Source: a virus
Strand: one strand, 5' to 3'
Length of the DNA: 30,202 nt
Virus record (IMG/VR): IMGVR_UViG_3300002835_012826
Span: 1-30,202 of that record
In this document: positions 3,360 to 23,278 of the stretch, piece by piece
How the letters are laid out: every line of letters starts with the position of its first letter
How positions within the stretch are numbered: the first letter of the stretch is position 1
Program-made: the position numbers and the translations under genes
Notes under the pieces: model-generated
What the model was told of the DNA's origin: nothing
Seen by the model: only the letters and a program-made list of their open reading frames with translations
The model's database searches: none

Positions 3360-3538
3360 ATGAAGACTTTCAACGTATTCTTAGAGAAGAATTAAAAAAA
3401 GAATTTGAAGAACAGATGGGAGTATCTGTTAATCAAACTGAACTTAAAAAAGTAATAAAGGAATATAAAAAAATTAAAAAATTCCAAAAGACTTCTTTGT
3501 ATCAAGTAATGCAAATGGATAAAAAAGAAAAAAAGTAA
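3356..3538 (+). CDS. Hypothetical charged helical protein, 60 residues
   Basis: This Lys/Glu-rich protein is predicted to be nearly all helix (MNEDFQRILREELKKEFEEQ...), perhaps a short coiled coil, with a Lys-rich end. It couples to the upstream gene by ATGA. Its stop codon lies inside the left arm of the large inverted repeat at 3533-3574, so transcription of this run probably ends or pauses there. No family is recognised. Confidence 0.6.
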   Translation: MNEDFQRILREELKKEFEEQMGVSVNQTELKKVIKEYKKIKKFQKTSLYQVMQMDKKEKK

Positions 3539-3574
3539 TTTCGTAAAATTGTATCAAACTTTACGAAATTACTT
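3533..3574. repeat. 15-bp perfect inverted repeat, 12-nt loop
   Basis: Arms 3533-3547 (AAGTAATTTCGTAAA) and 3560-3574 (TTTACGAAATTACTT) are exact reverse complements around a 12-nt spacer. There is no T-run on the + strand after it, so it is not a classic terminator for the upstream genes. The right arm ends in the first bases of the -35 box TTGACT, so it could be an operator for a repressor dimer or an mRNA 3' stabiliser. Its role is inferred. Confidence 0.8.
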
Positions 3575-3601
3575 GACTATATACAGCAACGGGTCTAGTA
3601 T
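3573..3601 (+). promoter_or_regulatory. Sigma70-like promoter of the riboswitch-peptide operon
   Basis: TTGACT (3573-3578), a 17-nt spacer and TAGTAT (3596-3601) give a good -35 box with ideal spacing and a moderate -10 box. The predicted start, near 3608, would place the RNA 5' end at or just before the riboswitch P1 stem. The -35 box abuts the inverted repeat at 3533-3574. Confidence 0.65.
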
Positions 3602-3604
3602 GAC

Positions 3605-3700
3605 CCTACGTTCATCAGAGACAACTCTGACGCAAGTAGGACGGCGGAACGGAACGTTCATCCCAATGGGACGCAAACCGCCCGAAGGAACGGGACCTAA
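3605..3700 (+). ncRNA. Glutamine riboswitch (glnA / Downstream-peptide RNA class)
   Basis: The leader matches the conserved layout of glutamine riboswitches. P1 is CGTTC (3609-3613) with GAACG (3688-3692). P2 is CAGAG (3616-3620) with CTCTG (3625-3629), loop ACAA. The junction strand ACGCAAGTAGG (3630-3640) carries the conserved GNAAGTAGG core. P3 is GGCGG (3643-3647) with CCGCC (3678-3682), followed by the conserved GAAG (3684-3687) directly before the P1 3' strand. Known members sense L-glutamine in cyanobacteria and cyanophages and usually precede nitrogen-assimilation genes or short peptides, exactly the context here. The long P3 loop contains a partial copy of the aptamer's own 5' half (3655-3677). 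The identification is by motif memory and hand-folding, not by a covariance model. Confidence 0.8.
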
Positions 3701-3707
3701 AAATCTC

Positions 3708-3728
3708 ATTTCTTTGGAGAAATCCTCA
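3708..3728 (+). promoter_or_regulatory. Shine-Dalgarno-sequestering hairpin, likely expression platform
   Basis: ATTTCT (3708-3713) pairs with AGAAAT (3718-3723) around loop TTGG. The Shine-Dalgarno GGAG (3716-3719) lies half in the loop and half in the stem, 8 nt before the ATG at 3728. This would let the upstream aptamer control translation. The direction of control (on or off with ligand) cannot be read from sequence. Confidence 0.5.
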
Positions 3729-3865
3729 TGGCTAAAGTAGTATATCGGGGCATCGAATATGATACTCAGAAACGTATTGAGTACCAACAACAAATGATGC
3801 AACAACCCCAACAATACAACGAAACCTATCGTGGTATTAAGTTTGTAAAAGAGGGGCATAAGTGA
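3728..3865 (+). CDS. DUF4278-like YRG-repeat peptide, 45 residues
   Basis: This is the first gene under the riboswitch: ATG 3728, TGA 3863-3865, with a good GGAG 8 nt upstream. The peptide begins MAKVVYRGIEYD and ends ETYRGIKFVKEGHK, so the short VYRGxxYD/TYRGxxF module occurs twice around a Gln-rich middle (YQQQMMQQPQQY). That two-copy YRG layout is what I know as DUF4278, a family of small proteins in cyanobacteria and their phages; function is unknown. It is coupled to the next peptide by TGATG. Placement after a glutamine riboswitch suggests a role in nitrogen or host-takeover control (inference). Confidence 0.8.
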   Translation: MAKVVYRGIEYDTQKRIEYQQQMMQQPQQYNETYRGIKFVKEGHK

Positions 3866-22720: not shown

Positions 22721-23278
22721 ATGTCGGAACAACAAGCAAAAGAGTGGTGGCAGCAGGGGTTTGGATATAGACTTCAAGGGGGAAATGTAGAATCTGGAAA
22801 GGAAGTATCATATTCTATGATTACCGATGAAGGTACTGGTTTTATGTATTATAAAACTGGGGATTATTGGAATATTAATGATCGTAGTTCTGTTGAAAGG
22901 TGTGGAATAAAACTAAATGATAAAGAAGTTGCAAAGATAATTAAGGCAGATAATGGTGATATTGTTTTTGAAGCTCCAAACGGACAGATCACATTAAAAG
23001 CAAAAAATATCAGAATTATTGCCGAAGATGGTGATGGTGAAATTACTATGCAAGCAGGAAAAATTCTAGAGGCTGATGCACCAACATCAAGACTCAAAGG
23101 AACTAATGTTGATATCACCGCAGTTAGTGGTGCTCAGATTATAGGATCTTATGTTGATGCATCAGCATCCACTCAAGCAACTGTTTCATCTTTAACTGAC
23201 GTAACACAGGGATCTCTTGTTGGCACAGTATTGAATGTTCTCGGTAATGTTAAAAAATTCTTAGAGTATTTCGCATAA
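22721..23278 (+). CDS. Separate beta-helix spike (gp5 C-terminal-like)
   Basis: This 185-residue protein has a short N-terminal helix (EQQAKEWWQQGFGYRL), then GKEVSYSMITDEGTGFMYYK and a run of short beta repeats (GDIVFEAPNGQITLKAKNIR, IIAEDGDGEITMQAGKILEA, RLKGTNVDITAVSG). The 'GxIxLxAxNIxIxAxDG' pattern is that of the triple-stranded beta-helix of gp5/VgrG spikes. It probably forms the membrane-piercing needle on the gp5-like protein. It starts 30 nt after that gene and ends 1 nt before the next ATG. Confidence 0.78.
   Translation: MSEQQAKEWWQQGFGYRLQGGNVESGKEVSYSMITDEGTGFMYYKTGDYWNINDRSSVERCGIKLNDKEVAKIIKADNGDIVFEAPNGQITLKAKNIRIIAEDGDGEITMQAGKILEADAPTSRLKGTNVDITAVSGAQIIGSYVDASASTQATVSSLTDVTQGSLVGTVLNVLGNVKKFLEYFA

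Follow-up and report, generated by a model that had tools for sequence, protein, structure and literature searches.

A predicted dumbbell-shaped double glutamine-I riboswitch with a circularly permuted inner aptamer in the leader of cyanophage genes

The leader at positions 3609-3693 of a virus record of 30202 bases (the window, i.e., the whole stretch that was analysed) is in all likelihood a double glutamine-I riboswitch of dumbbell shape, in which two aptamers predicted to bind glutamine have one P3 helix in common and the inner aptamer is circularly permuted. The outer aptamer is proposed to keep the normal strand order and to end in P3, the far end of which would open into the permuted aptamer. 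In the latter, P1 would be a closed hairpin (GAACG-loop-CGTTC), and the P3 strands would form the open ends. Because P3 is common to both aptamers, two three-way junctions would sit on a single stem, back to back. The strands of the inner half follow each other in the order P3-P1(3')-P1(5')-P2-J2/3-P3, which is a circular permutation, as the P1 3' strand GAACG at 3647-3651 precedes the 5' strand CGTTC at 3655-3659.

The window carries a compact form of the element without an embedded gene, and 3609-3693 fits an ordinary outer glutamine-I aptamer with a second, permuted aptamer at the tip of its P3 (Table 1). An initial annotation had read the leader as a complete glutamine aptamer with a partial copy of itself in the P3 loop. 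The motifs on which it was based are all present where they had been placed, within one base: CGTTC at 3609-3613 and 3655-3659, GAACG at 3647-3651, 3652-3656 and 3688-3692, GCAAGTAGG at 3632-3640, GAAG at 3684-3687, CAGAG/CTCTG at 3616-3620/3625-3629 and TCCC/GGGA at 3661-3664/3668-3671. The outer half is indeed a complete aptamer in order, with P1 CGTTC/GAACG followed by A and P2, the loop E GTA/GAA beside P3 and the linchpin pair 23-60; the loop-E motif of the glutamine-I aptamer is named in the accessible text of PMC6698751, and its 3' strand is GAA or AAA in an alignment of 57 diverse elements. The second block does lie inside the P3 of the outer aptamer, where the inner aptamer is also found in relatives. 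The register of P3 had been given as GGCGG/CCGCC, and the relatives favour GG-A-CGG/CCG-C-CC. The third GAACG (3652-3656), which had been taken for a further P1 strand, falls in a loop that is variable among relatives. GGAACG occurs eight times in the window (mean of shuffles 2.74, largest 7) and CGTTCA 11 times (shuffle mean 5.7); CGSAAGTA occurs once, which, taken alone, is no excess over chance.

Table 1. Positions of the leader features and flanking elements in the window
Feature	Positions	Strand	Basis or remark
Dyad GGGTC-TAGTAT-GACCC with -10-like hexamer (3596-3601)	3591-3606	+	7 nt before the aptamer; by reading
Outer P1 5' strand CGTTC	3609-3613	+	Pairs with 3688-3692; picked by RNAalifold on 57 relatives
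Outer P2 hairpin TCAGAG/CTCTGA	3615-3630	+	3/3 counted pairs vary on both sides, 100% paired
Outer position 23 (C), pairs with G3693 as linchpin	3633	+	Paired 57/57: C-G 41, G-C 16
Loop-E 5' strand GTA, partner GAA 3684-3686	3636-3638	+	Invariant in the 57-element alignment
Common P3 5' strand GGACGG	3639-3644	+	Pairs with 3678-3683, A3641-C3681 mismatch
Inner P1 3' strand GAACG, first in the chain (permuted)	3647-3651	+	14/14 changed inner P1 complementary; RNAalifold
Inner position 60 (G), pairs with C3674 as linchpin	3652	+	Paired 55/57: G-C 44, C-G 11
Inner P1 5' strand CGTTC	3655-3659	+	14/14 changed inner P1 complementary; RNAalifold
Inner P2 hairpin TCCC-AAT-GGGA	3661-3671	+	Loop holds a gene in many relatives
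Inner J2/3 CGCAAA including inner position 23 (C3674)	3672-3677	+	57-element alignment
Common P3 3' strand CCGCCC	3678-3683	+	P3 pairing counts in relatives
Loop-E 3' strand GAA, G3687, outer P1 3' strand GAACG 3688-3692, outer position 60 G3693	3684-3693	+	
TCTCATTTCTTT, candidate switching strand against P1	3704-3715	+	Can pair with GAAGGAACGGGA 3684-3695; minimum free energy fold
Candidate Shine-Dalgarno GGAG	3716-3719	+	By reading
Downstream 45-codon ORF, YRG-type peptide	3728-3865	+	PHROG 5049, E 3e-11

Relatives of the element are numerous. A scan of IMG/VR with a pattern that covered the 5' part only, and was blind to the inner block, returned at least 120 stretches. Among the 120 that were listed, the nested element is complete in 99; a further 14 are single aptamers with a P3 hairpin of their own, one runs past the contig end and six are of other kinds. 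Of these six, three (L076 and L103, which are one sequence, and L104) are nested elements whose inner P1 has changed, L036 carries a gene in its inner P1 loop, and the last two are a degenerate locus (L002) and an apparent chance match (L075). Since 99 of the 120 listed loci of an inner-blind scan contain the full nested element, chance is excluded as the origin of the half copy, a reading the initial annotation had considered. Its suggestion of a decayed tandem aptamer is contradicted by the same 99 loci, and hundreds of relatives show conservation and covariation of the inner parts. Five further scans added loci; the one with the inner pair fixed in its pattern gave 81 matches, and the counts of the other four are lower bounds. 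In a loose parse, all parts were found in order in 403 of 417 cores (viral loci and the window), a count that includes a few true tandems (L389, L399, L423), and several of the 14 failures lie at a contig edge. A stricter parse dropped 33 of 411 cores, several of them solely for the spelling CGCAC.

Fifteen phage isolate records, a non-random selection from 298 BLAST hits, were read, and the element is present in all of them. It is compact in S-PM2, Bellamy and S-CAM7, carries a gene in the inner loop in S-RIM2, S-H38, SynMITS9220M01, S-SKS1, S-BM1, KBS-M-1A, ACG-2014a and S-SM1, and has genes in both loops in P-RSM4, S-CAM1, P-SSM4 and S-TIM5. Among 386 cyanobacterial genomes, RF01739 matches 72, and a dumbbell model matches 10, all with hits of 50-60 nt and at most 39.3 bits that correspond to single aptamers, a weak negative with about ten candidates scored per genome; a search of three cyanobacterial genomes gave no match. 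Among the matches listed by a scan of the genome collection, most were due to chance, and three nested-looking loci (L475, L550, L562) were rejected: like L389, L399 and L423, they are true tandems, in which two glutamine aptamers of the ordinary kind follow each other and either copy has a P3 hairpin and a GTA/GAA to itself.

The arrangement of the two halves is decided by covariation. In the bound glutamine-I structure, the linchpin pair G23-C60 closes P1 (excerpts of PMC11477058). Read as a dumbbell, the 57 aligned elements keep the outer linchpin in 57 and the inner one in 55 cases; in the crossed pairing of a plain tandem, in which the first CGTTC (3609-3613) would pair with GAACG 3647-3651 and the second (3655-3659) with GAACG 3688-3692, the same rows keep them in only 36 and 34 cases and thus fail in 21 and 23. 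Among 307 distinct parsed elements, both linchpins are kept by 297 in the dumbbell and by 179 in the crossed pairing, and when loci first found with the inner pair fixed in the pattern are left out, the counts are 273 and 173 of 283. The linchpin is broken in 10 of the 307 in the inner half and in none in the outer half. Outer and inner linchpin types occur in all four combinations, even inside single P3 classes, with flips that recur within several of them, and several independent flips are therefore likely. The inner P1 was scanned with nine combinations allowed at its variable pair, and with the other loci this gave 14 distinct elements with a changed inner P1 (C-G in 12, A-T in two, mismatched in none), all 14 of which remain complementary within the inner hairpin. 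RNAalifold, to which no structure was supplied, drew the outer and the inner P1 of the dumbbell on the 57 relatives; it did not predict P3 there.

A plain tandem is extremely unlikely in the window and is ruled out for the family by the linchpin and inner-P1 covariation. It could be argued for on the grounds that the sub-cut-off Rfam matches align both halves in this way, that published tandem glutamine riboswitches are common (157 doublets and four triplets in the accessible part of PMC9481103) and that both linchpin positions of the window are compatible with it too. However, changes in the inner P1 are compensated within the inner hairpin only, each half of a tandem would keep just one strand of loop E, and the true tandems carry their own P3 and loop E per copy. 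Membership among the tandems, i.e., self-contained aptamers in series, is rejected on the same linchpin and inner-P1 covariation and on this comparison. The initial annotation had further suggested that several P1 pairings compete as a built-in switch. In such a kinetic switch, dumbbell and tandem pairings would be mutually exclusive states that alternate, and the tandem half would be the first to form as the RNA is made. This reading would suit the full complementarity of either P1 register in the 57-element alignment and the fact that the 5' half is transcribed first; yet variants such as CAACG/CGTTG or AAACG/CGTTT persist despite losing full tandem pairing, and the linchpins are not preserved in the tandem register. 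It is therefore regarded as very doubtful, although a passing competition while the RNA is transcribed keeps a small probability, and three competing P1 pairings are not borne out as a conserved feature by the linchpin counts and the 14 complementary inner P1 hairpins.

The compensatory changes in P1 and P3 that the initial annotation had proposed to look for were found in part. They are present in the inner P1 (14/14) and in the P3 class with strands of 10/9 nt, where 160 of 225 cells pair in 25 distinct combinations (permuted mean 139.5, maximum 152 in 5000 permutations). The outer P1 shows no covariation because its strands are invariant in the 57-element alignment, and in the 8/7 class, to which the window belongs (eight combinations), P3 pairing is not above permutation (4351/5000). 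The same is true of the 10/10 class (2064/5000), and in the 7/6 class 341 of 5000 permutations reach the pairing. The P3 helix carries regular A-C or C-A mismatches; in L104 and L624 of the 8/7 class, it reads GGAAGG/CCTTCC and is fully paired. By nearest-neighbour energies, which contain no ligand or tertiary terms, the enforced dumbbell of the window leader lies at -29.7 kcal/mol vs. -39.7 kcal/mol for the free minimum, and the free minimum is likewise the more stable fold in all four isolates that were folded.

No Rfam family matched the window at its gathering score. The Glutamine model (RF01739) reached 31.5 bits (cut-off 35) on 3653-3696, where strands of both aptamers are mixed, and 17.5 bits on 3609-3651, so that the check proposed earlier gave no significant glutamine riboswitch match. 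The window fails the cut-off because the Rfam model does not describe the dumbbell topology. Glutamine-II (RF01704) was rejected, with 23.2 bits vs. a cut-off of 33 and a pairing that is nested and not a pseudoknot. The inner half has the P1, the P2, the ligand-contact bases and the linchpin of glutamine-I, and the contact positions named in the accessible text of PMC6698751 are all invariant in it in the 57-element alignment. Instead of the loop E GTA/GAA, a short A/C step is found in the window and in most P3 combinations, and since loop E is missing, the inner half is glutamine-I-like and not a standard member. This bears on a third explanation, according to which the outer aptamer alone binds glutamine, and the inner unit serves as a structural cap with an aptamer sequence retained by descent. 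The missing loop E and the ten broken inner linchpins, vs. none in the outer half, speak for such a cap; against it stand the invariant contact positions and the covariation of the inner linchpin, which serves the bound state only according to the consulted part of PMC11477058. Taken together, this cap is considered rather unlikely.

Two glutamine sites remain the preferred reading of the dumbbell. The glutamine-contact nucleotides C1, G59, C58 and G22 and the pair 23-60 are present in both halves, for which reason two sites that are coupled via P3 would be expected. The coupled sites are predicted to control the translation of the small gene downstream, which encodes the YRG-type peptide at 3728-3865. 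Its resemblance to Pfam DUF4278 is weak (19.5 bits, below the cut-off of 25.3). A Shine-Dalgarno-like site followed by ATG lies within 80 nt downstream in 362 of 378 elements. The computed minimum of the window leader (-39.7 kcal/mol) does not contain the dumbbell; it contains a hairpin of 3684-3695 with 3704-3715 just before the Shine-Dalgarno site. In elements of the G60 class, the P1 3' strand pairs with the segment before the Shine-Dalgarno site at -6.84 kcal/mol (permuted mean -6.52, lowest -6.74). In the C60 class, this pairing is absent (-2.56 vs. -2.58 permuted), and the Shine-Dalgarno site has a possible partner in the bases that follow P1 (-3.48). The covariation of the switching hairpin is slight in the G60 class and none was found in the C60 class. 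Glutamine-II switches of the hosts are described as ON switches in the part of the literature consulted, which proves nothing for the phage.

Many relatives carry genes inside the aptamers. Of 403 loci, 206 have short P2 loops in both halves; the loop is of ORF length in the inner half of 106, the outer half of 48 and both halves of 30, and the remaining 13, all at most 160 nt from a contig end, lack the outer 5' end. For 126 of 127 long inner P2 loops and 73 of 74 long outer ones in the strict set, an ORF starting with ATG covers at least 80% of the loop, with a median length of 53 and 67 codons, respectively. Pooled dN/dS is 0.14 for the inner (266 pairs) and 0.32 for the outer genes (116 pairs), the pairs not being independent, and the embedded small genes are, judged from these sequence comparisons, under purifying selection. 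With the 3' end placed without using P2, 273 of 306 cells are paired between the P2 ends that enclose inner genes, and 5000 permutations average 215 and never exceed 239; for outer genes, the signal is weak (138 of 168 vs. a permuted mean of 132.6, reached by 156/5000). Members of the inner set match PHROG 504 and members of the outer set PHROG 6471 or 13397, none of which has a known function, and no embedded protein scored over the cut-off in Pfam. The ORFs are annotated as hypothetical proteins in 15 of 16 cases in the isolates, the exception being the inner ORF of S-CAM1.

The embedded genes and the aptamers also seem to use the same bases. The last codons of the embedded gene and its stop (UGA or UAA) would be the conserved bases of J2/3, P3 and loop E. 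Inner genes commonly end in WDAND or IDAKAD, which is GACGCAAACGAC and its variants read as codons, and a stop TGA/TAA within the loop-E strand is found in 118 of 120 gene-bearing elements vs. 94 of 185 compact elements that spell it by chance. At the other end, the start codon would lie in or beside the P2 5' strand, and a weak Shine-Dalgarno sequence would overlap the inner G59-G60, so that P2 is proposed to mask the start codon and the inner P1 to mask part of the Shine-Dalgarno sequence. Because of these overlaps, ligand-bound folding and translation of the embedded gene would exclude each other. It is a tentative but serious possibility that a single stretch of RNA serves as sensor, ribosome binding site and coding sequence at once, i.e., a permuted aptamer pair on one stem with genes in the P2 loops and mutual exclusion of binding and translation.

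Two further observations concern the loops. On the reverse strand of L036, an ORF of 189 codons lies in the inner P1 loop of the dumbbell, and both hairpin ends are intact. Homing and HNH endonucleases in PHROG match it weakly (3e-8, 1.5e-4), and no Pfam family does so over the cut-off; a mobile gene seems to have invaded this riboswitch. A palindrome, TTCGCTATT..AATAGCGAA, serves as P2 in many elements, both inner and outer (e.g., L005, L358 and L572, the last of which is S-PM2). In the loci collected, 120 copies stand beside CGTTCA and one elsewhere, within a longer P2 of L262, which suggests a cassette that is favoured as P2 or is spreading.

Downstream of the leader, the window contains a ThyX-like thymidylate synthase gene and a phoH gene, a neighbourhood that recurs in Synechococcus phage S-PM2. 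The dyad at 3591-3606 is a possible promoter, with which the RNA would start at around 3608. A TATAAT-like hexamer with at most two mismatches lies upstream of the element in 240 of 257 distinct upstream stretches of relatives, at a distance of 7 nt in 127. The inverted arms that flank it vary and stay complementary (327 of 740 positions paired in 148 distinct arm pairs; shuffled maximum 277), a count with a possible bias, as the hexamer was set by best match. Hexamer and arms could represent a promoter that contains a dyad, or else a hairpin that is transcribed. Directly upstream of the leader is an AT-rich inverted repeat (3531-3576), perhaps the terminator of the preceding gene. Elsewhere in the window, a DprA-like recombination protein is encoded at 131-679 and an HNH endonuclease at 1520-1900, and at 23066-23172 the plant MIR172 model reaches 35.3 and 32.9 bits on the two strands, short of its cut-off of 70. 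The cause is a long inverted repeat within an ORF, a palindrome that probably fits the model by chance.

The element can be compared with several known RNAs. Its outer half resembles glutamine-I (glnA RNA, RF01739) in P1 CGTTC/GAACG, P2, the GTA/GAA loop E, P3 and the linchpin 23-60 (accessible parts of PMC6698751 and PMC11477058); unlike there, the P3 tip of the phage element holds a second, permuted aptamer, and no match reaches the gathering score. Glutamine riboswitches are already known in cyanophages according to the available parts of PMC9964418 and PMC9602691, and glnA matches such as the 99-nt one in S-CREM1 are listed in the former as single ordinary elements. Glutamine-II (Downstream-peptide RNA, RF01704) is described, in the source text consulted, with a long-range pair of the C23-G60 type, the same pocket and a small peptide gene after it; it is a pseudoknot with the P1 3' strand inside the last hairpin, whereas the phage element is nested apart from the single linchpin pairs. 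Tandem glutamine riboswitches also have two aptamers for the same ligand per leader, but the phage halves are interlocked on one helix and not serial; some of the doublets counted in PMC9481103, as far as its accessible part goes, may be such dumbbell elements. Like permuted hammerheads, twisters, 5S rRNAs and group II introns, the inner half has the same core with another opening point. A translated small ORF that interacts with riboswitch control is also described for the uORFs at B12 riboswitches of Mycobacterium tuberculosis in the accessible part of PMC11260477, where the uORF adjoins the switch in the leader; in contrast, the phage gene sits in an aptamer loop, and aptamer bases are its last codons. 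In agreement with the initial annotation, which knew of no description of the nested arrangement, none of the shared P3, the permutation or the loop genes was found in searches of the open literature; a mention is possible in Ames and Breaker 2011, Klahn 2018 and Ren 2015.

If the fold holds in solution, it would be a natural circularly permuted riboswitch aptamer, a kind that is absent from the 2023 list of natural circular permutations, which names hammerhead, twister, 5S rRNA and group II introns and no riboswitch aptamer in the consulted part of PMC10085705. Two aptamers for the same ligand on one helix would then have a direct physical route to coupling or cooperativity, unlike serial tandems. 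Genes within aptamer loops would mean that the aptamer is coding sequence too and that its conserved bases are under RNA and protein constraint. The fold would also explain that such RNAs are split or missed by standard covariance models. Isolates that carry it (S-PM2, S-RIM2, P-SSM4) make the dumbbell testable in existing laboratory systems, and it offers a handle on how cyanophages read the nitrogen state of their hosts.
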